Positions 29,022 through 63,536 of a stretch of DNA of 64,000 nt are shown here, piece after piece. The position numbers and the translations under genes were made by a program. The DNA comes from an uncultured Opitutia bacterium (lineage in GTDB: Bacteria; Verrucomicrobiota; Verrucomicrobiia; Opitutales; Puniceicoccaceae): contig CAJXLM010000008.1 of NCBI GenBank assembly GCA_913056175.1, positions 1 to 64,000 on the forward strand, read 5' to 3'. Numbering within the stretch: position 1 is the first letter of the stretch; the number at the start of each line of letters is the position of its first letter. The notes below the pieces were generated by a model, which had not been told where the DNA came from, did not search any database, and was given only the letters and a program-made list of their open reading frames with translations.

Positions 29022-29060
29022 GCAGACACCCATTGCGAGTGAGAATCTGCAGACACCCAT
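29022..29060 (-). repeat. Two copies of the ATGGGTGTCTGC repeat (reverse orientation)
   Basis: GCAGACACCCAT occurs at 29022-29033 and again at 29049-29060, both in the reverse orientation and about 27 bp apart. These are the first members of the repeat family that recurs up to 45.67 kb. Confidence 0.85.
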
Positions 29061-29082
29061 AGAAAGAGCCCGCCGGGATTTT

Positions 29083-29576
29083 GCGGACACCCATTGGATA
29101 GAGAAGAGAATATTCACAAAAGGCCGGTGCGCCGCAGAAAGCCGGTGCGATGGGCGAGGAAACGGCAGGGCGGGAGGACTCCGTAAACACCCGTCCATTC
29201 GAGCGGGAGTCCTCGGACACCCATCGAACGCACAAACCCCCATCGAAATCCGGTTAGGACCCTCCGGAAAATTGGAGGAGATCCTTCGCCGCCTCCTTTG
29301 CTCCCGCGTGAGTCAGGTCGGCCGCTGGGAGCGAATGACCCCAGTCAACCCTCCCGGGCGGTTCTCTTTGCGGGTCTCAGTGGATCTCGATGGAAAGGCG
29401 CGCTTCGGAGAAACTCGATCGAAACCGCAGGGCTCTCTGAATTACAAAAAGTAATCGATTGGTAAGACCACCCGTTGCGCGTTGGCTTCTCAGCGAGGTT
29501 GATCCGAGCGCTCGGTGGTCGCCACCCGCTCCAGTTGCGCAGGCGGGTAGAAAATGGGTGTCCGCGATTTCCCCTG
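29083..29576. repeat. About 495-bp element, copy A, bounded by inverted repeat ends
   Basis: The element begins GCGGACACCCATTGG (29083) and ends AATGGGTGTCCGCGATTTCCC (to about 29576), so its ends are inverted copies of the dispersed repeat. A second copy with roughly 90 percent identity by eye lies at 31076-31574 in the same orientation. Internal landmarks shared by both are the GGTGCGATGGGCGAGGAAAC segment, CCGGTTAGGACCCTCC and an AATTACAAAAAGTAATCGATTG palindromic patch. No open frame looks coding. It resembles a non-autonomous MITE-like element. Copy A abuts the truncated end of an ABC-2 permease gene. Confidence 0.8.
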
Positions 29577-30137
29577 TCCATGCTGCTGCTGGCGGCCGCG
29601 CTAATCCGCGAGCAGGAACACGGCACCATTGAGCACCTGCTGGTCATGCCGCTGAGCCCGTTGGAGATCATGCTCGGCAGGGTGTGGGCCAATGCGCTGG
29701 TCGTGGAGGCCGGCACGCTGGCCTGCCTCTTTCTGGTCATCCGAGGGCTGCTCGCGATCCCCCTCGCCGGCTCGCTCGCGCTGTTCATGTTCGGGACCTT
29801 CATCGATCAGTTCACTATCACGGCCATCGGTATGGTGTTGATCACGCTGGTGGGGTCGGTTGCCCAATTCGTCCCGCTGCTGCTGGTCAACATGCCCATG
29901 ATCCTCCTGTCCGGCGTATTCACGCCCGCCGATTCCGTGCCGGAGGCCCTGCAATGGCTCATGATCATCTTGCCCATGCGCTATTACGAGGAGTTGTCCG
30001 TTGCGGTGTTGTTCCGCGACGCCGGCACCGCGGTGCTAGGCCGGGAGTTGCTGCTGATGGCGCTGATCGGCGCGGCCGCCTTCGCGGTCTCGCTGCTGCG
30101 GTTTCGACAGCATTTCAGCGCGGTGGGCAGCAGTTAG
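29577..30137 (+). pseudogene. Truncated ABC-2 type transporter permease (C-terminal part)
   Basis: About 185 residues corresponding to the C-terminal half of a YhhJ/ABC-2 family permease. It reads LIREQEHGTIEHLLVMPLSP, a conserved cytoplasmic segment after the second membrane span, followed by four hydrophobic segments including the family-typical MILLSGVFTPADSVPEALQW. Complete proteins are about 370 residues; everything upstream is replaced exactly by the right end of repeat copy A. An ATG at 29580 could still start translation, but a functional transporter is unlikely. Codon use is CTG-rich and differs in feel from the neighbouring housekeeping genes, suggesting a foreign fragment captured together with the next gene. 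Confidence 0.8.
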
Positions 30138-30144
30138 GGCCCGA

Positions 30145-30174
30145 ACCGGGGCGCAAGGCCGCTGCGCCCCCGGT
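30145..30174. terminator. Stem-loop between convergent genes
   Basis: An 8-bp perfect stem (30148-30155 with 30163-30170), extendable by 3 bp across a bulge, lies between the permease fragment and the convergent acetolactate decarboxylase gene. It is a likely bidirectional terminator hairpin, although neither side has a long T-run. Confidence 0.55.
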
Positions 30175-30231
30175 CGCCGGGTACAGCCGCGTCCACCTCG
30201 GGCCGGTCGAAATAGTGAAGAGATCTTTTGA

Positions 30232-31044
30232 TCACTCGTTCTCGACCGCTCGCACGTCTGCAGCCTTGTCGCCACTCAGCTTTGCCCCCGCAAAGGCCTC
30301 GGAGTCCGGCAGATGCAATCGCAGGTCGCGCACCTCCAGGATCTCGACCGCAAGCTCTCCGGTGGTGGAGAGATCGAGCAGGTGGCCCCCAGCCGTGCGG
30401 TCATCAGCCAGAAAGTGCAGGTGATAGCCGGGCGCGCGTAGCCCTTTCGCATAGTCCGGGCTGCGAAAGCCCACGAGGGTTCCGGTGATGTTGCTGTGCT
30501 CAAACACGGCTTGCTGCTTCACCACCTCGGTCAAGCGGGGATACGGTGGCGTCTGCTTGGGCACCGAGCGGGCCTGCAGCGTGGCGAAAGTCCCCTGGAT
30601 GCGAAACGCGTAGAAGAGGTTTGGGTTCGGGGCCATGCCGTCCAGCGCCCGGAACAAAGCGTCCTTGCTCGGTTGGGGGCCGATAATGCCTGTGCGCTGC
30701 GCCTTGAACGGCACGACGCTCGCATACGGCGAGCGCACCTGCGGGGAGGGTTGCTGCGGTATCCCGGTCACGGGCACCTGCCAGACTTCGCCGTCGAGCA
30801 CGATCATCTCGCCGTCCAGGCCGTTGAAGGTTCCCAGACCCAGAGTGCCTTGTTCGGAGAGCGTCCCCACACGCAGGTCGCCGTCGTAGACCCCTTCCAG
30901 CAGGGCCTCCAGGGTGCCGTACTGGAAGATGACCGTCTCGGCGCGCTGCGTCTCTTTTGCCCCCAGCGGCAGGGTCAAAAACATGAGCCAGAGCAGAGCG
31001 AATGGCCTTCGCGTTGCTCGTCGTGCGGGGTCAAGAGGGGACAT
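30232..31044 (-). CDS. Acetolactate decarboxylase, predicted exported
   Basis: Converts alpha-acetolactate to acetoin. The family signatures are clear: YGTLEALLEGVYDGDLRVG, LGLGTFNGLDGEMIVLDG, then GTLVGFRSPDY and the zinc-binding HLHFLADDRTAGGHLLD with its three histidines. Starting at the ATG at 31044 gives 270 residues, including RRPFALLWLMFLTLPLGA, a Sec signal peptide cleaved near AKE. So the enzyme should act in the periplasm or outside, as the secreted Brevibacillus enzyme does. The frame extends to 31110, but that part is repeat-derived sequence. No acetolactate synthase (alsS) is adjacent, so it is separated from its usual partner. It is bracketed by the two 495-bp repeats, which argues for transfer as a module. 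Confidence 0.92.
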   Translation of the reverse strand: MSPLDPARRATRRPFALLWLMFLTLPLGAKETQRAETVIFQYGTLEALLEGVYDGDLRVGTLSEQGTLGLGTFNGLDGEMIVLDGEVWQVPVTGIPQQPSPQVRSPYASVVPFKAQRTGIIGPQPSKDALFRALDGMAPNPNLFYAFRIQGTFATLQARSVPKQTPPYPRLTEVVKQQAVFEHSNITGTLVGFRSPDYAKGLRAPGYHLHFLADDRTAGGHLLDLSTTGELAVEILEVRDLRLHLPDSEAFAGAKLSGDKAADVRAVENE

Positions 31045-31075
31045 AGGGCTTGCGTTGTGTCGGGGGAGGAATTTC

Positions 31076-31574
31076 CCAGACACCCATTGGATAAAGAGAA
31101 GAGTACCCACAAAAATCCGGTGCGCCAGAGAAAGCCGGTGCGATGGGCGAGGAAACGGCGGGGAGGGGAGGACTTCCTAGACACCTGTCACGCATCAATT
31201 CGGGCGGGAGGCCTCGGACACCCATTGAACGAACAGACCCCCATAGAAATCCGGTTAGGACCCTCCGGAAAATTAGAGGAGATCCTTCGCCGCCTCCTTT
31301 GTTCCCGCGTGAGAACAGGTCGGCCACTGGGAGCAAATCACCCCAGTCAACCCTCCCGGGCGGTTCTCTGTGCGGGTCTCAGTGGATCTCCATGGAAAGG
31401 CGCGGTTCGGAGAAACTCGATCGAAACCGCCGGGCTCTCTGGATTACAAAAAGTAATCGATTGGTAAGACCGCCCGTTGCGCGGTGGCTTCTCGGCGAGG
31501 TCGATCGGAGCGCTCGGTGGTCCCCACTCGCTCCAGTTGCGCAGGCGGGTAAAGAATGGGTGTCCGCGATTTCC
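31076..31574. repeat. About 499-bp element, copy B, bounded by inverted repeat ends
   Basis: Direct repeat of 29083-29576. It starts CAGACACCCATTGG and ends AATGGGTGTCCGCGATTTCCC. Differences from copy A are scattered substitutions and small indels, implying that the duplication is not very recent. Together the copies flank the permease fragment and the acetolactate decarboxylase gene in a composite-transposon-like arrangement. A further single copy of the core lies at 31593-31608. Confidence 0.8.
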
Positions 31575-31592
31575 CGGCGATTCCTGCATTAC

Positions 31593-31610
31593 AAATGGGT
31601 GTCTGCAAAG
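31593..31610 (+). repeat. Single copy of the ATGGGTGTCTGC repeat
   Basis: AAATGGGTGTCTGCAAAG, forward orientation, 19 bp beyond the end of 495-bp copy B. It separates that element from the decayed toxin-antitoxin pair. Confidence 0.8.
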
Positions 31611-31726
31611 AGGTGCTCACCACCCCTCACCCTCGGCCTCCTCTTTGAGGAGGGGGCGGGAGTGCGGACATCGGTGGGAAATTGCGGTTGGCGGGGGAGA
31701 AAAAGGGGCGGTAACCTCTCCGTATC

Positions 31727-31959
31727 GTGAAGGAAGTGACGGTCCAGCAGGCGAAGCGTTCGCTGGAGGTGATCCTGCGCGAAGTGGGGCAGGGAGAGGT
31801 GTTTCGATGGACGGAGGACGGGACGGAGGTGGCCGAGCTGCGCGCGGTGACCGCGACCGGGAGGGGGAGCGAGTGACCTTGTTGGCGCGGCTCGAACGGC
31901 AGCGGCAGGTGGGGCCGGTCTCGTGGAAGCGAGGAGAGCTGTACGATCGATCGGCATGA
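31727..31959 (+). pseudogene. Frameshifted Phd/YefM-type antitoxin
   Basis: From the GTG at 31727 the frame reads KEVTVQQAKRSLEVILREV and RWTEDGTEVAELRAVT, the compact fold of prevent-host-death antitoxins. It then ends at a TGA (31874-31876) after 49 residues. The expected C-terminal tail is found in another frame: TLLARLERQRQVGPVSWKRG, then ELYDRSA and a stop at 31957-31959 overlapping the start region of the toxin gene. One frameshift near 31860-31870 therefore splits the gene. The short version might still be made, but it lacks the toxin-binding tail. Confidence 0.65.
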
Positions 31960-31975
31960 GTGCCGAAGGTTTCCT

Positions 31976-32434
31976 GTGCGCATCGCCCTCGACACCAACC
32001 CTTTCGTCTAAGCGGAGGGGGTGGGGGATCCTCGGAGATACTTGATCGCCCGGGACTGGGTGAAGAGACTCCCGGTCGCCGAGGTGATTCTGCCGGCACA
32101 GGTTCTGGGCGAACTATCCCGTGTCCTTGTTGGCAAGGCAGGCCTTTCCTCTGCAGTGGATTGCGATCGGGTGCTCGAATGGGCCGGCGTGTTTCCCATC
32201 GTTCCCTCCAAGGCAGGAGCCTTGATGGCCGCTTTTGACCTGGCAACGGACCATCAGTGGTCGATCTGGGATGCGTTGATGTGTGCGGTGACCGCGGAAG
32301 CTGGGTGTGGCACCTGGCTCAGTGGCTGGTGCTTCGCACGCATGGGAGGCCTCCGGCCGGCAGGGGAGCCTGCGGCGGCAGGGGAGGCCTTCAGCCGTCA
32401 TGGGTGTAGGCGGGGGAGGCGTGACAAGGGCTAG
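31976..32434 (+). pseudogene. Inactivated PIN-domain (VapC-like) toxin
   Basis: A PIN-domain ribonuclease remnant. From GTG 31976 it reads RIALDTNPFV, the first acidic PIN motif, and then a TAA (32009-32011) stands where Tyr is normally found. The frame continues with LPAQVLGELSRVLVGKAGL, carrying the conserved Glu, and DLATDHQWSIWDALMCAVTAEAGC, carrying the later acidic residues. After that the sequence no longer matches a PIN C-terminus (the usual 'LLSEDL' is missing), suggesting a second frameshift or replacement. With its antitoxin also frameshifted, the pair looks like a dead vapBC-type module. Confidence 0.8.
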
Positions 32435-32493
32435 GGTGGTGATTGTCGGATTGGTGTTGTGACTACCAACTATCCCACCGCGGAGCGGTCCCA

Positions 32494-32521
32494 CCCCTCC
32501 TTGGGAAGGAGGGGAGTTTTT
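32494..32521 (+). terminator. Rho-independent terminator
   Basis: A perfect 9-bp stem (32494-32502 with 32506-32514, GGG loop) followed by AG and five T residues. It is oriented to end rightward transcription from the toxin-antitoxin remnant, 60 bp beyond it. Confidence 0.85.
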
Positions 32522-33181
32522 GGTCTAGAGGAATGCTCGTATTCACGGACCGACTCCTGACCTCCAAGCTCTGACCCCGACCCTTCACTCTTTACCCTTC
32601 ACTCTTCCCTCCTTTGGAAGGAGGGAAGAGCAATCGTAGACACCCATGGGAACGTTGCCCAAGAGGAGAGACCGTCCCCAAACCGGGGACTTTGCGCACG
32701 CGCTTTGGTGCGGTTGGGGGTCAATCGCTCCCGGTCGAGGATTCCATGACGATTCGACCGCTCCGCCCCCTGATCCGGGGAGGAGCCAAGAGTCGGCCGG
32801 AGTTCAAGGGGAGCGCTTGACCGGAATTTGACTGCCCCTTGCGGTCGGTCGTGGCTCGTTAGCGGGAATTTTTTTTTCGCTGTTGGCCGAAAATTCTCCC
32901 TTCAATCGGTAAAGGTGCGTCACCTTGTGGAGTCCCCAAAAGGGAATTTATTGAACGATTCCCTCATTCAATGGGGTGTGGGGGTCGAGCGGCGGAGAAG
33001 GTGACTCCCTACGAGCTCGATTCCGGATCGGGGCAAAGTGGGTGTCCGGTAACGGAGATAGCGATCGGGCGTTTGTCGATCCCCATAAGCCTCTGCAATT
33101 CACCCGCCACGACTCCCATGGAGGTTGGAGGTGGCAGAATCGGCAGGGGGCATGGCGACCCTTCAGACCGGCGTTGAAGCG
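32522..33181. other. Intergenic region with repeat copies, no gene seen
   Basis: No coding region is convincing here. A second hairpin, cttccctcct paired with aggagggaag, lies at about 32603-32629. A reverse copy of the dispersed repeat (TAGACACCCATGGG) is at about 32637-32650 and a forward degenerate copy (GTGGGTGTCCGG) is at about 33038-33049. Around 32865-32960 the DNA is locally AT-richer and could hold promoters. The rest shows nothing identifiable. Confidence 0.5.
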
Positions 33182-34342
33182 TTAGGTGGTTTTCTGGGAT
33201 CGTTCGATGATCCTTTGGAGGGAGGCGCTTCGGCTGTCGGCGGTCTGTGCCTGAATCCGGAGGAACATGGCTTCCCGCACCCGTCTCTCCTGGTCACACC
33301 CGGAGAGGACGCCTGCACCCGCCCGTGCGGTCAGGGCGGTGACCGCAGCCTCGGTGGCGAGGTCGAGGGAGGTAGCTCTCAGGGCGATGGCCTCCGCCCG
33401 TACGGCCGGACTGTCCGGCTCTCCGAGGAGCTCATAGGCGCGGTTGCGTACCGTCCGTATCTCCTTGGCGAGGGCTTCGGCGGCTTCGCCGCAGGCGGAG
33501 TCGCCGCGGTCTCGCCCCCGGGCGACGAGGTCGGCGAGGGCTCCTCGAGCCAGCCCGTAGACCGCGGGATTCCCGTGAACGGTCTTCGCTGCATCAGCGG
33601 ATCTCCAAGCCTCGAGATCCTGCACGGCTACAATCCGTGTGTTGGGGATGAAACCGTCCAGTTCAATGGGACGCGTATACGTACCCCCGAGCGCGAGCAG
33701 CTCGAGGGGCGGTTTCACGGCGAGGCCCGGCCAGGACTCAGCGGCAAAGCCCGCCGGGAGGAGAGCACTGACCAAGGAGGACGTGTCGTTCCCCGCTCCC
33801 CGGGCCATGACGAGAACCAGGTCGGCGTTGTCCCAATTGGTGACCCAATCGAGCCGCCCCCGGAACCTCCAACCACCGGCGGTCCTTTCCGCTACCGGGT
33901 TCGGGGGACCCGGCCTGCGGACATGGGCAAAGGCGACTGCGGCGATTTCCTCCCCGCAGCGGAGCGGACCGAGGTGAGCGCGGCGGAGCTCCTCCACTCC
34001 TGGCGTTTCGTCCGTAGCCTGAGCATTCTCGAGGGCGCGCAAAGGGGTCTGGTGTTGGGCCCAGCAAAACCAAACGGAAGCATCCGCGGCGGCGAGTCGC
34101 TCGGCGAGATCCCTCTGTTGCCCCGGCGAGGGCAGGGGAGAGCCCAGCCAACCTTGCCCAGCAAGTCGGTCGAGGATCGAGCGGGAAACCGCGTGGCGAT
34201 CCCGGTGGGCTGCTCCCTTCGCGAGCGATGCCCACATCGCTTCGTCCCCGTCCCTCCAGTCCACCGCTGGATCGGCGGATCCAACGAGGTCGTAGTCGAC
34301 AAGGGAAGAGGGGGGAGCGCTGGGGAAGAGTCCAAACGTCAT
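33182..34342 (-). CDS. Acyl-CoA dehydrogenase-like flavoprotein
   Basis: A 386-residue protein with the acyl-CoA dehydrogenase fold by eye. It has an N-terminal helical domain with LDRLAGQGWLGSPLPS and AADASVWFCWAQHQTPLRAL, a central beta domain recognisable from VAERTAGGWRFRGRLDWVTN followed by WDNADLVLVMA, and a helical C-terminal domain ending in RIIERSQKTT. The usual active-site Glu region and CoA-binding signatures are not clear, so it may be a distant member acting on a non-CoA substrate, or a flavin monooxygenase of the same fold. No partner electron-transfer genes are adjacent. It stands alone between repeat-bearing intergenic regions. Confidence 0.7.
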   Translation of the reverse strand: MTFGLFPSAPPSSLVDYDLVGSADPAVDWRDGDEAMWASLAKGAAHRDRHAVSRSILDRLAGQGWLGSPLPSPGQQRDLAERLAAADASVWFCWAQHQTPLRALENAQATDETPGVEELRRAHLGPLRCGEEIAAVAFAHVRRPGPPNPVAERTAGGWRFRGRLDWVTNWDNADLVLVMARGAGNDTSSLVSALLPAGFAAESWPGLAVKPPLELLALGGTYTRPIELDGFIPNTRIVAVQDLEAWRSADAAKTVHGNPAVYGLARGALADLVARGRDRGDSACGEAAEALAKEIRTVRNRAYELLGEPDSPAVRAEAIALRATSLDLATEAAVTALTARAGAGVLSGCDQERRVREAMFLRIQAQTADSRSASLQRIIERSQKTT

Positions 34343-34723
34343 CGGACGCCAATCTATGGAAGGTGGTTCTCGCCGTCGAACCTACGGGGATGGTCCAGAG
34401 GACACCAAATCCTTATCCCTGTCTCGTTCACCAGCCAAGTCGCCTCGGCTGAACCCTCGGGATTCGCTCGAGGTAAGCCAACGAAAGTGAGAGACCACCG
34501 GAGGGGTGAGTAACGCGGGAGGGAATCCGATGGCTTCCTCCGTCGACCGGGGGCCCTCGAGTGCGCGTTGGCTCCGGAACAACATGGGTGTCTAAGAAAA
34601 TTGGCGCGCTGAAACGGGCGAGGGTGCATGCGGTCCTCGCCCTCGCCGAATCCTTCGGAACGCACGCGGGTACCCTGACTCGAAGAGTCGGCTTGGCCGC
34701 GCCAGCGGCTAAGTGGGATTTTC
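34343..34723. other. Intergenic region with one repeat copy
   Basis: About 380 bp between two leftward genes. It contains a forward copy of the dispersed repeat (ACATGGGTGTCTAAGAAA at 34582-34599). No gene, tRNA or terminator was recognised. Confidence 0.45.
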
Positions 34724-35473
34724 TCAGTAGCGGGCGAGGTACATCCCATACCCGAAATACTCCCGGAAGGACTCGTAGAGCTCGATTTCCCTTTCCTCGG
34801 CGGCGACAATCGCTTGCGCGGCGGTCTTGTCACTCGCAGAACGGATGAATTCCGGGAATCTCGCCTCCAGAGGGCGGTAGAACTCCTCGATCCAGCAAGT
34901 CTCCGGGATAAGGAAATAGGCAAGAGGTTGATATCCAGCATCTTCGAGAAGCTTCAGTTTTGCCGAAGCCGTATCGATTTCCGGGTATTCCCTCCGCCAG
35001 TAATCCTCCAGTTCGTCCGGCCGGCTGCGCGTCGTCCAGGTGATCTCGGAGACGACGAGGATTCCTCCGGGGCGGAGGAGCCGACGCCACAGGGAGACGC
35101 CCTCGGCGAAGCCGAGGTTGTAGATGGCACCTTCCGACCAAATCAGGTCCAGCGAAGCCTCCGGGAGGGGTACATCGTCCAGCGACGCTTCGAGGGTGTT
35201 GATGCGGTGGCCAACGCCACGTTCCCGCGCTCTCTCCCGCAGATCCTCAAGGAACCGTGGCTCGAGATCAACAGCGGTGATTGTGGACGAGGGTAAAGCC
35301 TCTGCGAGGACGAGCGTGGCAGCCCCCGTCCCGCACCCAAAATCGGCTACCTGCAGGGGAATGGAATCGTCGAGCCCGGTGAGCGCGAGTGCCCGGAGCG
35401 TGGTGCGATCGCTGCCGGGCCCTTGTCGGAGGCCCTTGGCGTGGAGGTCGGCCATGAGCTTTGTTTTGTCCAC
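34724..35473 (-). CDS. SAM-dependent methyltransferase (class I)
   Basis: A 249-residue class I methyltransferase. The SAM-binding motif I is QVADFGCGTGAATLVLAEAL; motif II acid is AVDLEPRF; SLDLIWSEGAIYNLGFAEGV corresponds to motifs IV and V; and LLRPGGILVVSEITW is the post-motif strand typical of small-molecule methyltransferases. The C-terminus is rich in Glu and aromatic residues. Substrate cannot be predicted; ubiE-like or metabolite methyltransferases share this layout. The gene is isolated, with repeat-containing spacers on both sides. Confidence 0.9.
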   Translation of the reverse strand: MDKTKLMADLHAKGLRQGPGSDRTTLRALALTGLDDSIPLQVADFGCGTGAATLVLAEALPSSTITAVDLEPRFLEDLRERARERGVGHRINTLEASLDDVPLPEASLDLIWSEGAIYNLGFAEGVSLWRRLLRPGGILVVSEITWTTRSRPDELEDYWRREYPEIDTASAKLKLLEDAGYQPLAYFLIPETCWIEEFYRPLEARFPEFIRSASDKTAAQAIVAAEEREIELYESFREYFGYGMYLARY

Positions 35474-35642
35474 AAGGGAAGATCATAATCAAAATTCATG
35501 ACTTCGCGAGTCCGAAAAACCACCCGGAGGTCTGCAAAAACAAAGACACCCTTTTTTTGGAGGAGGGGGGGAACCGGAAGTGGTGCCGGTTTGGCCACAG
35601 GTCGAAAGGATGTTGGAGGTGCGCGTCGGTTGATCTCAGCAA
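35474..35642. other. Spacer between methyltransferase gene and MITE-like element
   Basis: No gene is seen. A degenerate fragment (gtctgcaaaaacaaagacaccc, about 35531-35552) looks like an inside-out pair of repeat halves. A T-run follows at 35553-35559. Confidence 0.35.
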
Positions 35643-35878
35643 AATTGCGGACACCCATTGATTCTTGAGAGGAAGCGGGGAGGTGGGAGTGGATTGCTCC
35701 GTCGATGGAGGGGGAGGTGCTTGCGAAAGGCTTTCTGTACGATCCTATCCCGTCTGATAGGGACCAATTCACGAAAGGGGGGATGAGGCCTGATTGGGGA
35801 GCTGGATCGTCTCCAGGTTGGAGGCCCGAGCCTCTCCGGGGCTAGATCGTCGGCGGTAATCAATGGGTGTCTGCAATT
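35643..35878. mobile_element. 236-bp MITE-like element with 21-bp inverted ends
   Basis: The left end at 35643-35663 and the right end at 35858-35878 are inverted copies of each other over 21 bp with one mismatch, and both are members of the ATGGGTGTCTGC family. The interior has no credible gene. No target-site duplication is obvious. It is the clearest isolated example of a repeat pair acting as the ends of a small element. Confidence 0.75.
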
Positions 35879-36043
35879 GTGCGTGCGTGGGTCCAGCCGG
35901 ATGATCTTCTCATTCCGGGCAACTTGAGTCGTCTCATCTCCTTTCATGATTTCTGGCCCTTTTTGGAGACCCTCCGAGAGGCTTACCCCAAAAAAAGTGC
36001 GAAAACTACCAACTGTGATCCCCGGTGAATGCCGAAGTCTTAC

Positions 36044-37441: not shown

Positions 37442-37503
37442 CTACTTCCTCGATTTCCTCCTCCTGTGCAACCCGGAGACCATCGCTGGCAGGTGAGCCG
37501 AAC

Positions 37504-37600
37504 GCGAATAATTGCAGACACCCATTGAACTCGGATTCGCGAACAGGCGAATACGAACAGGCGAACAATTGCAGACACCCAGTATACCCGGATTCGCGAG
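37504..37600 (-). repeat. Tandem pair of repeat copies upstream of the transposase gene
   Basis: Two reverse-orientation copies (ATTGCAGACACCCATTGAAC at 37511-37530 and ATTGCAGACACCCAGTATAC starting near 37568) are each followed by a CGGATTCGCGA segment. This gives a tandem unit of about 55 bp. The pair lies 200-300 bp upstream of the RAYT-type transposase gene. Confidence 0.75.
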
Positions 37601-37800
37601 GATCTCGGGGACCTTCGGACCTCACCCATCGATCGACCGCCGATTTTGTCCAATGTCTGATCTCCCCGCGACGCCCCGTTTGGTCGCTGGCCCCAAGCTC
37701 GGTGTGCAACCTTCGGTAGTCCGGCCTCAGGACCAAAGAAAAATCAACAGTTCCCCAAAGGGACTTGACTCCGGGCAGGTAGGGAACTTTTGTCGAGTGC

Positions 37801-38856
37801 ATGGCGGTGCCACGGAGCAAAGTCGTTCGATCCGGGGAGATAGGAGTTTATCACTGTGTGTCGCGCTGCGTTCGGCGCGCTTTTCTCTGCGGGTACGATT
37901 CTTATACCGGCCGAGACTACGGGCATCGACGCGGCTGGGTCCGGCAGCGTGTCCGGGATCTGAGCCGGAATTTCGCTGTCGACGTGTTTGCCTATGCGAT
38001 CATGAGCAACCACAGCCACCTCGTATTGCGTAACCGTCCGGATTTGGCGGCCCAATGGAGCTTGCGGGAAGTAGCGGAACGATGGTGCCGTGTTTTTCCG
38101 GGAGCGCACCGCGAGGGGGATAAAGGATGGGAAATCCGGGTGGAAGGTCTCCTGCGCGATCGGGCAGCGCTCGAGAAGCGACGGCGACGATTGGCCGATG
38201 TCAGTTGGTACATGCGCTGCCTGAATGAGTGGATCGCCCGCCGGGCGAACGGGGAGGACAAGTGCACGGGTCGATTCTGGGAGGGCCGCTTTCGCTGCCA
38301 GGCGTTGGTGGATGAGGGCGCGGTGCTCGCCTGCATGGTTTATGTTGACCTAAATCCCGTACGTGCGGCGTTGGCCACTGGCCTCGAGGACAGTTGGTTT
38401 ACGAGTGTCTATGATCGGCTTCGAGCGGCGAGGGCCAGCCACCGGTTGACGGCAATGGACCGCAAAGGTGGAGCGGACGCGACGGGAAAGTGCCAATCGG
38501 TTGAGGAGGAAAGACAGGCGGTGCGGGAAGCCGAATGGCTGGAGCCATTGGGGCAGACCGAATGTCCAGCTCTCCAGCTGGATCTCGAGCACTACCTCAA
38601 TCTCGCCGAATGGACTGCAGGTGTGCTGCCGGGCGATCCAGCAGCGTCTCCTTGTGAATCGGTTGAGAGGCTGCTCGATCGCTTCCAACTGGATGCCGAG
38701 CGTTGGGCGGAAAATGTCGCCTCGTATGGGAGTTTATTTCATTGCCTGGTGGGGAGCGGCGAGAAGATGGTCCGCGAGGCGCGTAGAAGGGGGCGGTCAT
38801 GGTTTCGCGGGCGCAGGGCAAGTGCGCGCCTCTACGGGCGCGCGCCGACCGGATGA
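37801..38856 (+). CDS. REP-associated tyrosine transposase-like protein (Y1/HUH family)
   Basis: A 351-residue Y1-transposase family protein of the RAYT/IS200-like type. The N-terminal region contains GEIGVYHCVSRCVRRAFLCG. The HUH metal motif lies in AYAIMSNHSHLVLRNRPDL. The helical part WYMRCLNEWIARRANGEDKC, then TGRFWEGRFRCQALVDEGA and MVYVDLNPVRAALATG, is typical of the long bacterial form annotated in Verrucomicrobiota and Planctomycetota. A candidate catalytic Tyr is in the WYMRCLN helix. It has a long, charged C-terminal extension. Such enzymes are single-copy relatives of IS200 transposases and are linked to dispersal of REP palindromes. Here two repeat copies lie upstream and more begin 225 bp downstream. 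Confidence 0.88.
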   Translation: MAVPRSKVVRSGEIGVYHCVSRCVRRAFLCGYDSYTGRDYGHRRGWVRQRVRDLSRNFAVDVFAYAIMSNHSHLVLRNRPDLAAQWSLREVAERWCRVFPGAHREGDKGWEIRVEGLLRDRAALEKRRRRLADVSWYMRCLNEWIARRANGEDKCTGRFWEGRFRCQALVDEGAVLACMVYVDLNPVRAALATGLEDSWFTSVYDRLRAARASHRLTAMDRKGGADATGKCQSVEEERQAVREAEWLEPLGQTECPALQLDLEHYLNLAEWTAGVLPGDPAASPCESVERLLDRFQLDAERWAENVASYGSLFHCLVGSGEKMVREARRRGRSWFRGRRASARLYGRAPTG

Positions 38857-39080
38857 CACCGAGAGCCTCCTTTCACGGTCATCGGCCGGGCAACAAGTAA
38901 AGCGCCTAGCCAGCTCGAGTAAGACGAATCACTTTCGTCGCGGTGGGTCGTTGTCCGAAATCTCGGGCCCCCGGGCGGTGGGAATCGGCGGGGAAAAGAC
39001 GGAGAACCCCAACTCCCAATGCGATAACGCTTTTTGGGGTCACGTTCTGCTGGTTTTGGTTGGTTCGTATCGGAATTTCC
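38857..39080. other. Spacer downstream of the transposase gene
   Basis: No gene is seen between the transposase stop and the first hairpin element. A 17-base segment near 38876 (acggtcatcggccgggc) is partly repeated near 39377. Confidence 0.35.
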
Positions 39081-39179
39081 ATAGACACCCATTGAACAAG
39101 TATTCTGCGCGGAATGGTTCTCCAGGGGACGAGGAGAGGGCGCTTTTCCGGGCACTGACTATGGGTGTCTGTGATTCAC
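39081..39179. mobile_element. About 95-bp hairpin element E1
   Basis: It begins ATAGACACCCATTGAAC (39081-39097) and ends ACTATGGGTGTCTGTGATTC (39158-39177), so its ends are inverted repeat copies. The interior carries GCGGAATGGTTCTCCAGGGG and GGGCGCTTTTCCG landmarks. A close relative, E3, lies at 39499-39597 and a right half, E2, at about 39393-39446. Confidence 0.75.
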
Positions 39180-39392
39180 ACTCCGGCGGGGACCGTGCGA
39201 TCCTCTGCCAGCGCAAGAAACCCTACGAAAACGCCCGGAAGCATCGGCCCGATAGGTGGTTCCGCAAAACCACCCGCAACTGGACCCCTGTCACCTTCAC
39301 CTCCCTCAACCCCACTGATTCCAGAATCCTCGGAAAAACCCTCAAGAAATCAGCCTGAGATCCCCGACAACTTAATTGACGGTCATCGCCGG

Positions 39393-39446
39393 GGGACGAG
39401 GAGAAGGCTCTTTTCCGAGTAGTAATTATGGGTGTCTGTGATTCAC
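39393..39446. repeat. Right half of the 95-bp element (E2)
   Basis: Matches the right half of E1: a GGGGGACGAGGAGAAGGC segment, CTTTTCCGAG, and the terminal ATGGGTGTCTGTGATTCAC at 39428-39446. The left end with the inverted copy is missing, so it is a truncated member. Confidence 0.7.
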
Positions 39447-39500
39447 TCGGGCAGGTCGGCTCCCAAGGCGCGTTCCACCCCTTATAGAAGAGTAATTTGC
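39446..39500 (-). pseudogene. Duplicated fragment of the DEAD-box helicase gene
   Basis: Thirty-three bases at 39446-39478 are identical to 39814-39846 inside the adjacent helicase gene. Similarity continues with some differences to about 39500 (matching to about 39868). The fragment sits between repeat elements E2 and E3, so it appears to have been copied or captured there. Confidence 0.8.
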
Positions 39501-39634
39501 AGACACCCCTTGAACGAGTTTCCTACGCGGAATGGTTCTGCAGGGGACGAAGAGAGGGCGCTTTTCCGAGGACTGATTATGGGTGTCTGTGATGCAGTGT
39601 GATGCAGTGATGCACTCGCTATGGGTGTCTGTGG
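39499..39634. mobile_element. About 95-bp hairpin element E3 plus an extra repeat copy
   Basis: E3 starts GCAGACACCCCTTGAAC (39499-39515) and ends TTATGGGTGTCTGTGATG (about 39577-39594); its interior matches E1. A short direct repeat (gatgcagtgtgatgcagtgatgca) follows, then a further forward repeat copy ATGGGTGTCTGTGG at 39621-39634, about 40 bp before the end of the helicase gene. Confidence 0.7.
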
Positions 39635-39672
39635 ACTACGCGGGACTGGGTAGAGGGGGAGAGGAGAGGCGA

Positions 39673-40929
39673 TCAACGTCGTTTTGTACGAGTGCCCTGG
39701 GTTCTTCCACGGGAGGATCGGCGACTTTGCCGGTTCGGACGAGTGTCCTTGGAGGCACGAGTCTTCTTCCGGGCGCGTGCCGTCTGCTCGCATCGATGTT
39801 CGTGTGCGAAGTCCTCGGGCAGGTCGGCTCCCAAGGCGCGTTCCACGTCTTGTAGGAGAGAGATTTCCTCCCGGCTGCAAAGCGAGACGGCCTTGCCGGA
39901 GGCTCCGGCTCGCGCGGTTCTGCCGATGCGGTGGACATAATTTTCCGCTTCCATGGGCAAGTCGAAGTTCACGACCAAGCCAATATCCTTCACATCGATA
40001 CCCCGCGCCGCCACATCGGTGGCGACCAACACGGGGACCTTCCCGCTGCGGAATCTCTCGAGTGACTTTTGGCGCGCGCTCTGGCTCTTGTTCCCGTGAA
40101 TGGCTTCGCTTTGGATTCCCGCCTTGGAGAGGCGTTCTGCAAGTCGGCCGGTGCCGTGTTTGGTTTTGGAAAATACGAGGCAGCGGTCGGTGTGATTTTG
40201 GAGGAGCAAACCCGTTAGGGCCGTAAACTTGTGGGAGCGGTCGAGGAAGCGAACGGAGTGCTGGAGGCGATCGGCCGTTTTGCGCTCGGGTGTGATCCTG
40301 ATTTCGCGGGGTTGATCGAGGAGACTTTGGGCCAGCTCGGCGATGGCCGGTGGCATCGTTGCGGAGAAGAGAAGGCCCTGCCGTTGCGCCGGCAAGTGCT
40401 TGGCGATTTTGCGGACTTCGGGCAGGAAACCCATGTCCAGCATGCGGTCGGCTTCGTCGAGAACGAGACATTGGACTTCGCTGAGGTCAGCAATCCCCTG
40501 GCGAAGAAGATCCAGCAGTCGACCCGGACAGGCGACGAGGACATCCACGCCATTGCGAAGCTTTTGCTCCTGTGGTTTTTGCGAGACTCCCCCGTGGACG
40601 AGGGCGCACCGGAATCGGATTTGGGCACCGTAAACCCGGAAGCTCGCCGCAATCTGCACGGCGAGCTCCCTTGTCGGTGTGAGCACAAGATTGCGCACCT
40701 CTCCGGGATATGCCTTGCGATTCTCGCAGTGCAGCCTGTGGAGGATGGGGAGGGCAAACGATGCCGTTTTGCCCGTCCCCGTCTGGGCAACGGCGAGAAG
40801 ATCTTCCCCGTTGAGGATCGGGGGAATGCTTTCTAACTGGACGGGGGAGGGATGGTGGTAGCCTTTCTGCTCCAGGGTTTTCTGGAGGCAAGGAGCCAGT
40901 GGTAATTCTTGAAAGGAAGGAGAGGTCAT
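39673..40929 (-). CDS. DEAD-box RNA helicase (RhlE-like)
   Basis: ATP-dependent RNA helicase of 418 residues. Motifs in order: Q motif with F...GYHHPSPVQLESIPPIL, motif I AQTGTGKT, Ia PTRELAVQ, Ib in VACPGRLLDLL, motif II VLDEADRMLDMGF, motif III SATMP, motif V ATDVAARGIDV and motif VI HRIGRTARAG. A basic, Arg/Lys/Ser-rich tail of about 50 residues (ending RGRTQGTRTKRR) fits RNA binding. The ATG at 40929 gives MTSPSFQELPLAPCLQ; the in-frame extension to 41016 is not family-like. A piece of its 3' region is duplicated at 39446-39500. Confidence 0.95.
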   Translation of the reverse strand: MTSPSFQELPLAPCLQKTLEQKGYHHPSPVQLESIPPILNGEDLLAVAQTGTGKTASFALPILHRLHCENRKAYPGEVRNLVLTPTRELAVQIAASFRVYGAQIRFRCALVHGGVSQKPQEQKLRNGVDVLVACPGRLLDLLRQGIADLSEVQCLVLDEADRMLDMGFLPEVRKIAKHLPAQRQGLLFSATMPPAIAELAQSLLDQPREIRITPERKTADRLQHSVRFLDRSHKFTALTGLLLQNHTDRCLVFSKTKHGTGRLAERLSKAGIQSEAIHGNKSQSARQKSLERFRSGKVPVLVATDVAARGIDVKDIGLVVNFDLPMEAENYVHRIGRTARAGASGKAVSLCSREEISLLQDVERALGADLPEDFAHEHRCEQTARARKKTRASKDTRPNRQSRRSSRGRTQGTRTKRR

Positions 40930-41464
40930 GATCGGGGTGCGGGACTCCCGTGGGGAACGAGTGCGCCCGCTCGGGTGCGATGAGACGAAGCGATGGGCCG
41001 GACATCCATCGCTCATCGAAACAGACTTCTCCGGTGGGGGATGCTGTCCACCCCTCGTAGGATATAGGGGCCTGATTCGGAGGGAGAAGCAATCCTCAAA
41101 TTTGCTGCGCGAGATTGGTTGGCCCGGTCACGCGGTGCTCCCCGTCCGAAGGAGATCCACCTCAATCCGGAAGCACTGGCGCCACCGGACGATCCGATAA
41201 CCCTTCCGCGTGGGCGTGAGATGGGTGTTGATTCACGGCGCTCATTCCAGGTTCTCCTCCCTTCCCCGCAAAGATCCAGCGGTTTTTCGTCCTCGATTAC
41301 CGCCCGGGCTGTTCGCAGGGACTGCGCAGGCAAACTTCCGGAGAGTCTCCTCGGCTGCCGAAGGATCGACCCTCGATCCACAACCTCCGGACCACGGATC
41401 ATTGAAACGGGTGTCTGCAAAAAAGTTTCCCCCGGTCGTTTTTCTGGGGGCTTTGCCAGTTCCG
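40930..41464. other. Intergenic region with repeat traces
   Basis: About 535 bp without a convincing gene. A partial forward repeat copy (ATGGGTGTTGATTCAC at about 41221-41236) and a better one (AACGGGTGTCTGCAAAA at about 41406-41422) lie here. The first is followed by GATTCAC, as in the E1/E2 ends. Otherwise nothing recognisable. Confidence 0.45.
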
Positions 41465-42691
41465 CTAGCCTCGCGACCACAACGCCCGGCCGGAGGTGGC
41501 GGCAACGACGAGGCCTACGAGTGCAAACACTGAGAAGGCGGCGTTGTAGCTGAAGGTTTGGATGGTCCAACCACCGACGACCGAGCCCAGCACTTGCCCC
41601 ACCGCAATGGAGACGAAAGGAAGCACGGGTCCCTGGGAGGGATTGGCGCGGGCCACTCGCACGCTTCGCACGAGATAGTACCCGGTCATGCACATGTAGG
41701 AGGCTCCGAAGAGAGCGGAGACACCCATCACCACCGGAAAATTGCCCGGCTGGATCGCGAGCAGGAGCAGGGATACCGAAAGCAGGCCGAGAGTCGCGTC
41801 ATGGGAGCGATCCGTACCGTACCGGTCCAGCCAGTCCCCAGCTCCGATCCCGAGGAGGCCCCCGAGGCCAACCGCTAGCCACATCCATCCGGTGGCCCCA
41901 CGAGCCAGATTGCCCGCTTCAGTGGCATAGTCCGGGCCAAAAATCCAGAAGAGCGAGCTGACCATGCCCATCGTAGCGGCCAGCGCGCTCATGCGAAGCA
42001 GGTCGAACCGCTGTCCGGAGGGTAGGCGGGCGGTACCTAGTTCACGGGCTCTCCAGTGACGGAGGGAAAAGCGCCCCGGGGGCAGCCGCCATCCCGCGAG
42101 GAGGCATCCAACGAGGGCGATTCCCGTAAAGCACGCGTAGACAAGCCGCCAGGAGTCGGGGAAGACGGCGTAAGCGGGCACCGAAGCCATGATGCCAAGG
42201 CTGGTCCCTGCATTCAGCGTAGCGTTGACCCTCCCGCGCAGACGGTCGGGGATCACACTTTCCACTGCGGATGCGAGGATCGGGGTGGAAAGACCGGTGC
42301 AGATTCCACAGACACTCACTCCGACCGCGAGTACGAATCCATTGGGTGCCAAGCTCATCAGGGCCATGCCCACTCCCCCCAAACCCAGCGTTGCGACCCC
42401 GCCAGATCGAATGCCGGCAAAATCGAGCAGACGTGGCCCCGTGAAGATACCGAGGACAAAGAAAAAGAAGGGAAGGGCCCCGATGATTCCCGCAAGGCCG
42501 AGCCCGATACCGAGATCCTCCCGCACCGCAGGCAGAAGCAACCCGAAGGCAAAGCGGGCCAAGCCGTAGGTAATGGCGATCAAAAAGCTACCGAAAGCCG
42601 CAAAAAGCCAGACCGAGGTAGGACGGGCTTCATGGGCCGGGGGAGCTCCTCGAGGATCCGTGGATTGAGCATTGAATGGTCCGTTTCTCAC
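41465..42691 (-). CDS. MFS transporter (YbfB/YjiJ-like)
   Basis: A major facilitator of about 408 residues with twelve hydrophobic segments. Features: FLIAITYGLARFAFGLLLPAV in helix 1, IGALPFFFFVLGIFTGPRL, the intracellular loop after helix 4, DRLRGRVNATLNAGTSLGI, and a C-terminal half starting FDLLRMSALAATMGMVSSLF. The layout resembles YbfB/YjiJ-type permeases, whose substrates are mostly unknown. No ATG fits near the start; I used the GTG at 42691, about 33 residues before the first helix, but the start is uncertain. It lies alone in a repeat-free segment (41.4-44.5 kb) inside the accessory region. Confidence 0.88.
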   Translation of the reverse strand: MRNGPFNAQSTDPRGAPPAHEARPTSVWLFAAFGSFLIAITYGLARFAFGLLLPAVREDLGIGLGLAGIIGALPFFFFVLGIFTGPRLLDFAGIRSGGVATLGLGGVGMALMSLAPNGFVLAVGVSVCGICTGLSTPILASAVESVIPDRLRGRVNATLNAGTSLGIMASVPAYAVFPDSWRLVYACFTGIALVGCLLAGWRLPPGRFSLRHWRARELGTARLPSGQRFDLLRMSALAATMGMVSSLFWIFGPDYATEAGNLARGATGWMWLAVGLGGLLGIGAGDWLDRYGTDRSHDATLGLLSVSLLLLAIQPGNFPVVMGVSALFGASYMCMTGYYLVRSVRVARANPSQGPVLPFVSIAVGQVLGSVVGGWTIQTFSYNAAFSVFALVGLVVAATSGRALWSRG

Positions 42692-43073
42692 CTCAATCGC
42701 TCTCGGTGGGGTTGCCTTTGTGATGCATGAACCGGAGCGAAGAACCGCGAGGGGAATTTGCAAATCGTGTCGGCGACCTGAGCGGCAAGCTCGCGTCGGA
42801 AACAACCGTGACCCTCTAGACGGATTGCCCCACCCGCAGCTCCCACATCCTTCCTCGCCGCAATGGAGTTTCCCGGCAATCAAGCGCCTCTTCACGGTAT
42901 CCCGCCGCACAGAAGGTCGGATCGACAGGCGAGCCCAAAGAGAATGCACCCGTAGAAGATCCCTTTGAACAGTTCCCCGTGGAGCCCCATGGGCCACCGT
43001 TTCGCTTCGCCGCTTGCCCAAACCCGCGGAATCTTCGTAGACCTCCGGCGAAATCACTCCAACCCTCCGAACC
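42692..43073. other. Divergent intergenic region, no gene seen
   Basis: About 380 bp between the leftward transporter and the rightward FMN reductase gene, presumably carrying both promoters. No clear promoter motifs, repeats or small genes were found. Confidence 0.4.
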
Positions 43074-43655
43074 ATGACCACTTCCCCCCGAATCCTCGTC
43101 TTTGCCGGCAGCGCCCGGCAGGAGTCCCTGAACAAACGCCTCGCCCGTGCGGCTGCTGCCACCGCCCGGGAGCTTGGTGCCGAGTCGACGTTCCTCGACC
43201 TTGCGGATCATCCCATGCCGCTCTTTGACCAGGATCTCGAGGCTGCGGACGGGATGCCGGCCAGCGCGCGTGCTTTCCGCGAGCAGCTCGCCTCCCATGA
43301 TGGTTTCCTGATTGCCTCGCCGGAGTACAACAGCTCGCTCACGCCGCTCCTGAAGAACGCCCTCGACTGGGCGTCCCGGGCTCCGGGGGGCGGGGGCGAT
43401 CTTTCCGCCTATCAGGGGAAAATCGCCGGGCTGCTTGCCGCGTCGCCGGGAGGGCTCGGAGGCTTGCGCGGCCTCGTTCACCTCCGCGCCATCCTCGGTA
43501 ACATCGGAGTGCACGTAGTGCCGGCCCAGATGGCCCTCCCCGCCGCGGGTGATGCCTTCGGAGAAGATGGAAGCCTTCTGGACGAAGGTCAGGCCTCCCG
43601 GGTACGGTCGGTGGTCGAGGAGGTCGTCCGGGTGGCGACGGCTCTGCGCGGTTGA
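43074..43655 (+). CDS. NADPH-dependent FMN reductase family protein
   Basis: A 193-residue flavodoxin-fold reductase. The phosphate-binding loop for FMN is VFAGSARQESLNKRLARAAA, and FLIASPEYNSSLTPLLKNAL with DWASRA is the hallmark of the NADPH-dependent FMN reductase/chromate reductase group. AGLLAASPGGLGGLRGLVHLR completes the fold. Probable roles are flavin, quinone or azo-type reduction in the cytoplasm. It is divergent from the MFS gene. Confidence 0.93.
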   Translation: MTTSPRILVFAGSARQESLNKRLARAAAATARELGAESTFLDLADHPMPLFDQDLEAADGMPASARAFREQLASHDGFLIASPEYNSSLTPLLKNALDWASRAPGGGGDLSAYQGKIAGLLAASPGGLGGLRGLVHLRAILGNIGVHVVPAQMALPAAGDAFGEDGSLLDEGQASRVRSVVEEVVRVATALRG

Positions 43656-43962
43656 ACCCGGCAAGGGCGAGTCGGGGTCATTGGGCTCGAGCCCTCGCTC
43701 GGCCCGTGGGGAAACCTGCAGGTTGTTGGCCCCGGCGCCACAGACCTCTCCAGAGCGCTTCCGGCGGTAAAGGGCGGCGGGTGGAGGATGGGGAGCCCTT
43801 ACGGCCGGATCTTTCTGGGCAGATCCCTTGTGTGGAGGTCGGCTGGTCTCGGGTTCTTCGGGGATAGCCGGCTAGGCTCCGCCCGGTCGCACTCCCGGCG
43901 GGGCCTCGCTGCGCAAGGTCACAGATCGACGGGCACCGTGGGAACCGCACTTGCTGACCCGC
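43656..43962. other. Intergenic region, no gene seen
   Basis: About 300 bp between convergent genes. Short GC-rich inverted segments are present but no clear terminator with a T-run. No repeat copies. Confidence 0.4.
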
Positions 43963-44388
43963 TCAGTCCGGCTTGTTGGACTTCCCGGCGAAGAGCTCCC
44001 ACCGCCGCCTCTCGATTTCCTGGCAGAGGGGAATGTCGGCGGGAGCCCAGTGCAGGAGCCGCCATTCCTCGGGTGGTAGCCATCGCAATCCGGTGTGCTC
44101 ACGAAGCTCCACGGTGGGGCGGGTCGAAGTCCGCGCGAGAAATGGCAGCAGCTGGATCGGGCCGAAGGTGTAGTGATGGTTGATGAGGGTCAGGGGTTGC
44201 AGCCCGGGCGGTAGCTCGAGCGCGAGTTCTTCCCGGATCTCCCGGCGTAGGCAAAGCTGCGGGGTCTCTCCCGGTTCCACTTTTCCGCCTGGAAATTCCC
44301 AAAGACCCCCGAGGGACTTGCCGGCAGGACGACGGACCGCGAGGACAAATCCGACGGAATCGGCAAGAACAAGGCAGGCAACGCGCAC
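43963..44388 (-). CDS. Nudix hydrolase (MutT-like)
   Basis: About 141 residues containing the Nudix box GGKVEPGETPQLCLRREIRE followed by EL, with the LGGLWEFPGGK entry typical of MutT/8-oxo-dGTP diphosphatases. LINHHYTFGPIQLLPFLA and LREHTGLRWLPPEEW match the second half of the family. The start is taken at the GTG at 44388 (VRVACLVLADSVG); the frame is open to 44502 and could give a longer protein. A nucleotide-pool cleaning role is likely but not provable. It borders the dense repeat array on its upstream side. Confidence 0.88.
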   Translation of the reverse strand: MRVACLVLADSVGFVLAVRRPAGKSLGGLWEFPGGKVEPGETPQLCLRREIREELALELPPGLQPLTLINHHYTFGPIQLLPFLARTSTRPTVELREHTGLRWLPPEEWRLLHWAPADIPLCQEIERRRWELFAGKSNKPD

Positions 44389-44523
44389 GCGCCTCCATGG
44401 AGAATCCTTACCCGAGGACGGGCGAGACTTTCTTCCGGAAAGGTCGCCTTTTCGCCGTGAGACGATGCGATCGGCTCCGGCAGGGATCGTCTGGCCCAGC
44501 AAGCGGAAGCGGAGGGAGTCTTG
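44389..44523. other. Upstream region of the Nudix gene
   Basis: Short spacer between the Nudix start and the first array unit. It presumably holds the Nudix promoter; none was identified. Confidence 0.3.
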
Positions 44524-45667
44524 TTGGGGTGTCCGAAGATTGTCTTAACTGGGTGTCCGCAAATCTTCCGTCTTCGGGCCGGGGAGTAGCGTGGAGTGGC
44601 GTCAACCAATGGGTGTTTATAAATTTGCCCCATGAAAACCATGGGTATCCTCATGGTCCGGCGAAAATAATGGGTGTCTTCGGAGTGCCCCGCAAAATCC
44701 CCCGGCGAGCGAGAATCCCCAAGTGTCCCCATGGACTCTTGGAGAGTTATGGGTGTCTACGAAGTCCGCTGGGAAACTGTGGGTGCCCACAAAATGATCA
44801 CTCAGCCCGAGGGGAAACCTGCAAGTTTTTATCACCCGCGCAACCGCACCACAGACCACCACTCCCACGAAACGAGTGGGGAGCTCAAATCGTCGCTGAT
44901 GGGTGATTGTCGCGCGCTGAGGGTGAGTGGGTACGTGGAGCGGTGTCTGTGAAATTCGAAGGTCCGTTGGGAAACCATGGATGTCTGCGAAATTCCCCCG
45001 GCAAAATCCCCGGCCGAGTGAGAATCCCCGAGTGTCCCCATGGACTCCAGGAGAGCTGTGGGTGTCTGCGGAGTCCAAATGGGTGTCTGCGGAATTCCCC
45101 GCAAAATCCCCGGGGCGAGCGAGAATCCCCGAGTGTCCCCATGGACTCCATGAAGACTATGGGTGTCTGCGGAATTCCCCGCAAATTCCCCGGCCGAGTG
45201 TGAATCTCCGAGTGTACCCGTGGACTCGAGGAAAGCTATGGGTGTCTGCGGAATCTCTTATGGGGATTGTTGCGTGCTGCGAGTGAGTGGGTGCGTGGAG
45301 GGGTTTCTGGGAAATTCAAAGGCTCTTTGGAGAGACATGGGTGTCTGCGAAATTCCCCCGGGAAACATGGGTGTCCGCAAAATTTCCGAGATTTCCCGAG
45401 TGTCCCCCTGGACTCCAGGAGAGCTGTGGGTGTCTGCGGAGTCCGCTGGGAAACGGTGGGTGCCTTTGGAGTCACCGAGGAAGATGTGGGTGTCTGCGAA
45501 TCTCCTGGGAAGCAGTGGGTGCCTTTGGAGCTACCGAGGATCTTGTGGGTGTCTGCGGCTTTCCTGGATTTCCGAAGAAGATGTGGGTGTCTGCGGATTT
45601 AGTGGGTGTCTTCGAAGTTCTTCGAAGTTTCCGAGGAAGACGTGGGTGTCTGCGAACCTATGGGTGA
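44524..45667 (+). repeat. Dense array of ATGGGTGTCTGCGGAA repeats
   Basis: About twenty forward-orientation copies of (A/G)TGGGTGTCTGCG(G/A)A and variants, counted by eye, occupy roughly 1.1 kb; in the right half they are 18-60 bp apart. Many belong to a longer tandem unit of about 79-80 bp: repeat, then TTCCCCGCAAAATCCCCGG, then GAGAATCCCCGAGTGTCCCC, then ATGGACTCCAGGAGAGCT, as at 44977, 45079 and 45159. A higher-order duplication of about 361 bp is also visible (44896-44975 resembles 45257-45336). GCGG and CCGC flank AATTCC inside the unit and can form small hairpins. Unit lengths are not multiples of three and the frames lack coding character, so it is judged non-coding. It is unlike CRISPR, having no fixed-length unique spacers. 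Confidence 0.85.

Positions 45668-62750: not shown

Positions 62751-63536
<786 letters not shown>

Follow-up and report, generated by a model that had tools for sequence, protein, structure and literature searches.

A short outward-facing motif as the probable cognate site of a subclass-2.3 HuH/Y1 transposase in an Opitutia genome and across phyla

Why is a single transposase gene in a bacterial chromosome surrounded by dozens of copies of one short repeat, and what does the repeat do for the enzyme? The question is raised by a 64-kb stretch of DNA from an uncultured Opitutia bacterium (hereafter the window; it lies on contig C8 of a 2.61-Mb host genome assembly of 84 contigs), where a RAYT-like gene at 37801-38856 stands amid repeat copies that an earlier note on the sequence had taken for a possible new REP/RAYT system. 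We consider it quite probable that a HuH/Y1 transposase of subclass 2.3 has the repeat as its cognate motif and that the two together form an insertion sequence (IS)-like, REPtron-like unit, whose arrays would arise by cleavage and re-joining. The repeat is probably also the cutting site of the enzyme.

The repeat is far from random, as 33 matches of ATGGGTGTCTGC at no more than one mismatch occur in the window, all within 29022-45653, against 0.19 +/- 0.42 in shuffles; the "more than 40 copies" counted previously are reached only with looser matching. The shorter 9-mer TGGGTGTC[CT] is found 37 times at 29.0-45.7 kb, and 34 of these copies lie outside called genes, although non-coding DNA makes up only 19% of the window. 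The remaining three are inside called genes, two of them upstream of the Pfam domain of the gene at 30232-31110. The family had also been described as region-restricted: it is indeed clustered, but in two or more regions. The whole genome contains 101 motif copies (reversed-pattern control, 3). Most of them surround a pair of paralogous RAYT-like genes, on contig C7 (0.5-67 kb) and on C8, and smaller clusters occupy the end of C4 and part of C27 (10.9-11.5 kb). Copies of this genome share the consensus A-TGGGTGTC[TC]GC[GA]A[AT]; separate clusters have almost no common sequence apart from the core, and copies inside one cluster are parts of local duplications, such as the tandem units of ~250 to 570 bp in the C7 and C4 clusters (86-96% identical). 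Rather than a uniform dispersed family, the copies represent element-end motifs combined with local duplications.

The window gene (plus strand) encodes a protein of 351 residues with an HuH motif, N70-H71-S72-H73, followed by W160-E161 (FWEGR) and the catalytic Y181 in YVDLNP (181-186). H73 and Y181 are 108 residues apart, and T201-S202 is conserved at 90% or more in the alignment. N70, H71 and H73 are invariant in 41-42 aligned sequences, where the HuH motif of relatives reads NHYH, NHLH, NHVH or NHTH, and the protein aligns over its full length with Shewanella, Pseudoalteromonas and Vibrio proteins. Its NCBIfam REP_Tyr_transpos score is 36 bits (curated cut-off 80), the Pfam scan gave no match for it, Y1_Tnp staying below cut-off in relatives too, and a profile sequence search of the PDB returned no match. 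Its AlphaFold2 model is confident (predicted local distance difference test, pLDDT, 90.6), and the best match in a fold search of the PDB (probability 1.00, E 0.0044) was 4er8, a structure of E. coli TnpA_REP in complex with REP, which bears out the reading of the gene as RAYT-type with an HuH/Y1 fold. Subclass 2.3 of TnpA_Y1 is characterized by NHYH, WE and YVDLNP motifs, a median length of 325 residues, an HuH-Y spacing of ~110 and a TS motif after the core, and occurs mostly in Alteromonadales and Chromatiales, in multiple copies per genome (Quentin et al. 2018, PMC6006769). The window protein agrees in its WE and YVDLNP motifs, length, spacing and TS motif, and its relatives in Shewanella, Pseudoalteromonas and Thioalkalivibrio agree with the host range; by motifs, length and spacing, the gene is assigned to subclass 2.3. 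The second RAYT-like gene, 65% identical to the first, lies inside the C7 motif cluster. Searches for REP-like sequences, both automatic and manual, had come up empty for subclasses 2.1 and 2.3 (Quentin et al. 2018, PMC6006769), and since subclass 2.3 was reported without associated repeats, its substrate and role were open.

The evidence that ties repeat and protein together comes from relatives. A scan of 84,980 species genomes yielded 80 loci with relatives of the protein (up to 10 kb of flank per side), spanning Gammaproteobacteria, Planctomycetes, Verrucomicrobia and others; no relatives of the protein were found on viral contigs. Within 800 bp of the gene in these loci, the top enriched 8-mer was TGGGTGTC, the core of the window repeat, oriented outward 115 times and inward twice, whereas the distal DNA, five times larger, contained 29 outward and 19 inward copies. 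In the same near-gene DNA, TGGATGTC occurred 37 times outward and never inward, and GGGGACAG twice outward and once inward. The core consensus is TGG[GAC]TG[TG]C[CT], also given as TGGNTGTC, and bases 8 and 12-16 show a bias as well (Y, followed by W-T-T). Upstream of the gene, the distance to the first copy is 60-125 bp in most loci, and downstream it is ~180-300 bp; TGG[GAC]TG[TG]C is present in 61 of the 71 loci with enough flank. It occurs on both sides in 47 of them, whereas among 184 distal windows 2 have it on both. In the ten loci that lack it, related words are mostly seen by eye at similar positions (TGCCTGTCC, TGTCTGTCC, TGACTGTCA, GGGGTGTCC). Furthermore, motif variants follow the protein tree, with 6 changes at position 6 (shuffle mean 10.5; 0/500 as low) and 6 at position 2 (shuffle mean 9.6; 1/500 as low), and near other RAYT types of the same order the motif occurs once outward and not at all inward in 35 kb. 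The link between gene and repeat, which had been proposed from one locus, therefore gains support from dozens of relatives in other phyla.

Within the order the exact 12-mer is found 56 times in this genome and at most 4 times in any of 176 others; it is enriched solely here because the bases 3' of the core vary among species, and core-based tests took the place of exact counts in relatives. Opitutia bacterium UBA4506, a close relative, was recovered by both search routes. A count of tandem motif pairs in 177 genomes of the order gave 38 for this genome, 6 for G022, 2 for G056 and 1 for G055, and single hits in other genomes correspond to the control rate; close homologues of the window gene occur in three genomes (G000, G022 and G055). 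The pairs thus gather mainly where such a homologue is present. The earlier note had named equal abundance in genomes without the gene as a refutation of the link; checked in these 177 genomes, the link was not refuted. A weak exception is G056, of the same family, which has its tandem motif pairs on C115 and C129, with no close homologue found in the search, possibly as a relic array or following loss of the gene at contig ends.

Do gene and motifs move together? Two Shewanella genomes contain ~20 copies or fragments each, and the homology among dispersed copies extends over 1.29 kb, from the upstream motif, which precedes the gene by 74-75 bp, to ~8 nt past the downstream motif. In two strains of P. 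shioyasakiensis the unit lies between the isocitrate dehydrogenase and acetolactate synthase genes (idh-ilvI), which in Pseudoalteromonas sp. CF6-2 adjoin without it, representing an empty site. Such a site, for which a search in sister strains had been suggested, was found in Pseudoalteromonas only, that is, in another genus; in Shewanella a precise empty site was not found, the flanks being too diverged or rearranged. Two marks of an insertion sequence, the sharing of ends among dispersed copies and the existence of an empty site, are hence observed. In addition, the upstream motif array of P. shioyasakiensis SDCH90 carries an additional block of duplicated sequence (roughly 110 bp) that is absent in strain A316.

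The most direct hint at how the motif is used comes from duplications that begin within it. Short tandem duplications, of about 11-16 bp, occur at 1.07 per kb beside subclass genes versus 0.16 per kb in distal DNA, a sevenfold difference; the most frequent periods are 11-15 bp. In 22 of the 125 duplications that share a side with a motif, the left edge falls exactly at core position 6 (TGGNTG^TC), the next offsets reaching 9 and 8. Counted independently, 22 of 239 copies had the edge at this position, versus 15 of 1065 for shifted controls at offsets 5 and 6 combined. Examples are GGGTG followed by TCCTTAAGGTATCCA and then TCCTTAAGGTATCC (L063), and GGGTG followed by TCTTAGGTTTATTTT and again TCTTAGGTTTATTTT (L127); one window copy (45603-45653, plus strand) has such an edge as well, reading TGGGTG^TCTTCGAAGT with a second TCTTCGAAGT adjoining. 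The edge at TGGNTG^TC suggests a cleavage site, and we propose a cut at this point because an edge inside a conserved 8-mer is hard to explain otherwise. In the literature covered, which did not include ISfinder and the supplements of the cited papers, no description of core-internal duplications was found, and a search by motif letters returned unrelated primer matches only. As a separate observation, the longest short-unit array seen lies in the downstream array of L070, 271 bp from the gene end, where the 14-bp unit TGGTAATTTTGGCT runs exactly for more than 90 bp beside the motif.

Taken together, the observed motif with its polarity, spacing and subclass specificity, the element ends, the empty site and the duplication edges are consistent with the following model. 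The transposase gene and the outward motifs on both sides would constitute one mobile unit of ~1.3-1.6 kb. The protein most likely would recognise single-stranded TGGNTGTCYnnnWTT, cut after TGGNTG and keep the 5' end on Tyr181. Transfer of this Tyr-bound end would disperse whole elements, while unequal re-joining or repair at the cut would duplicate adjacent DNA, at first in lengths of 11-16 nt and later as larger blocks bounded by motifs, so that stepwise block duplication would build the arrays around the gene. Binding to single strands, cutting, the covalent link to the protein and the final joining are inferred here from what is typical of the HuH/Y1 family. More tentatively, and with slightly less than even confidence, we suggest that the enzyme itself drives stepwise tandem duplication by cutting TGGNTG^TC, writing growing arrays into the intergenic DNA close to its gene; if true, bacterial tandem repeats would have a further origin, other than slippage or REP dispersal.

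Several points weigh against the transposase-motif model. Support comes from sequence and predicted fold. As the empty site was compared at ~83% identity, the outer ends are fixed only to some nucleotides. The first upstream copy of the window gene is 220 bp away, not the usual 60-125, and some copies are far from any RAYT gene (C4 end, C27), although the contigs are short. Core-internal duplication edges occur in just 2 of 130 own-genome copies, the signal deriving from relatives. Finally, a serine sits between the HuH histidines (HSH), where PMC6006769 lists hydrophobic residues, and this copy could for that reason be impaired.

How do other explanations fare? A classical terminal-inverted-repeat (TIR) element with the same protein, whose arrays grow without single-strand cleavage through host repair at nicked or stalled ends, would account for the defined ends, the empty site and the inverted motifs that face outward on either side, and TIRtrons are known for other RAYT types (Di Nocera et al. 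2013, PMC3733652). Yet the inverted similarity is merely ~8-16 bp and the protein has a single-strand HuH fold; moreover, a nick would still be needed at the duplication-edge base, so that this explanation, which we regard as unlikely, differs from ours mainly in the joining step. Still less probable is that the motif serves as a protein-binding operator by which the RAYT-like protein controls its own gene (or a host factor does so), with arrays owing to ordinary slippage. A copy at 60-125 bp upstream of most genes is within promoter range and short tandem repeats can come from slippage, but an operator explains neither the equally consistent copy 180-300 bp downstream, nor the polarity of 115 versus 2, nor why element homology stops at the motifs, and slippage predicts no duplication edge at one position inside a conserved 8-mer.

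The true REP family initially proposed, that is, palindromic REP/BIME sequences of unusual sequence in this genome, appears the most improbable of all. In its favour, the copies are extragenic, high-copy, single or in inverted pairs, and gathered around a RAYT gene. However, first copies folded with their flanks in four windows gave a mean z of -0.05 to -0.46, with no hairpin excess, and no GT[AG]G foot is present at a stem-loop base, the core being TGGNTGTC; a REP hairpin was accordingly rejected, and that different clusters have only the core in common is equally unlike a REP family. Of the possible REP/RAYT system of the earlier note, the RAYT link is supported and the REP part is not. Known TnpA_REP enzymes cleave at CT or CA beside a GTAG-selected hairpin (PMC8266576); with no evident hairpin here, recognition must be chiefly sequence-based.

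The transposase-motif unit is nevertheless reminiscent of REPtrons (TnpA_REP with GTAG-tagged REP/BIME in E. coli, Stenotrophomonas and Pseudomonas), with which it shares the HuH/Y1 single-strand nuclease fold (4er8 as best match), inverted short-repeat copies that flank the gene and are amplified in extragenic DNA, and a motif co-evolving with the protein. In contrast to REPtrons, it has a linear motif of 8-16 nt with neither GTAG foot nor palindrome, a larger protein with a 55-residue-class insertion and a C-terminal domain, dispersed gene-bearing units (up to ~20 copies or fragments per Shewanella genome), and short duplications that begin inside the motif. TIRtrons, or TIRYTs, likewise have a Y1 gene between inverted short repeats without REP hairpins, and some of their repeats form moderate families. 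Their motif is GGGGWSAS (Di Nocera et al. 2013, PMC3733652) and they belong mostly to subclass 2.1, the 26 TIRYTs being distributed over subclasses 2.1, 2.2 and 2.5 (Quentin et al. 2018, PMC6006769), whereas here the subclass is 2.3 and the motif TGGNTGTC, the top flanking motif TGGGTGTC differing from GGGGWSAS. IS200/IS605 elements (subclass 1.1 TnpA) also have a Y1 HuH transposase, intragenomic dispersal and defined ends, but theirs are subterminal hairpins that lie on one strand and have guide tetranucleotides, unlike the end motifs found here, which are inverted, hairpin-less and often arranged in tandem arrays, and our protein is about twice as long. Thus, a Y1 transposase with a cognate repeat is a known kind of system, while a repeat for subclass 2.3, and its motif, are new relative to PMC6006769 and PMC3733652. 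With an 8-16 nt motif and a predicted cut site valid across phyla, the enzyme becomes directly testable in vitro with short oligonucleotides. Many intergenic repeat arrays without annotation, in Shewanella, Pseudoalteromonas, Lysobacter relatives, Planctomycetes and Opitutia, are also explained by the motif, and a concrete model emerges of how an enzyme may drive tandem duplication in bacterial genomes.

Separately, a third and distant Y1 gene (28% identity) lies on C6 at 63045-63485 (L003; region 53001-73000, L050), with 7 copies of GGGGACAGA / GGGACAGAC within 20 kb that fit the TIRYT motif GGGGWSAS. Two RAYT types with separate motifs thus seem to coexist in one genome.

Near the window gene, the upstream copies, four of six downstream copies within 1 kb and the entire array at 44.55-45.65 kb point outward. 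Upstream lie outward copies at 37516-37524 (TGGGTGTCTGCAATT) and 37573-37581, the latter closest to the start codon (both minus strand). Downstream, an inward copy at 39083-39091 (minus) precedes the first outward one at 39162-39170, 306 bp past the stop, and an array with outward copies at 39429-39437, 39580-39588 (then nested short duplications, TGTGATGCAG) and 39622-39630 (all plus). Here 39083-39596 comprises a duplicated block, 39083-39178 being 89% identical to 39501-39596 with motifs near the edges of each. Between motif copies, 39446-39498 matches at 89% identity the 3' end of a DEAD-box helicase gene (39673-41016), positions 39814-39866; it reads as a captured gene fragment, as expected if duplications extend into neighbouring genes.

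The left edge of the repeat region has three minus-strand copies at 29024-29093 (starts 29024, 29051 and 29085). A unit of ~500 bp at 29075-29573, with outward motifs at 29085 (minus), 29215 (minus) and 29555 (plus), recurs as an 89% copy at 31068-31575, with motifs at 31078 (minus), 31216 (minus) and 31557 (plus); an acetolactate decarboxylase gene (30232-31110) lies between these two motif-bounded units, giving 29075-31575 a composite-like layout. Further copies are found at 31596-31604 (plus), 32638-32646 (minus), 33039-33047 (plus; 9-mer only, with more mismatches in the 12-mer) and 34585-34593 (plus; 9-mer only), together with an outward pair, 215 bp apart, at 35649-35657 (minus) and 35864-35872 (plus). 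The dense array at 44550-45651 (plus) contains 15 copies, all directed away from the RAYT-like gene, starting at 44550, 44671, 44750, 45059, 45080, 45160, 45239, 45338, 45368, 45427, 45487, 45546, 45584, 45603 and 45643, and from 44.67 to 45.65 kb it is built of local duplications that are 78-87% identical. Its spacers (44640-45460) contain GAGTGTCCCCATGGACTC several times, which could form a small hairpin. Downstream of the RAYT-like gene, 39200-39360 holds an open-frame tail (...RDNWTPVTF-like, with the end NPTDSRILGKTLKKSA as read by eye) that resembles the remnant of another gene.

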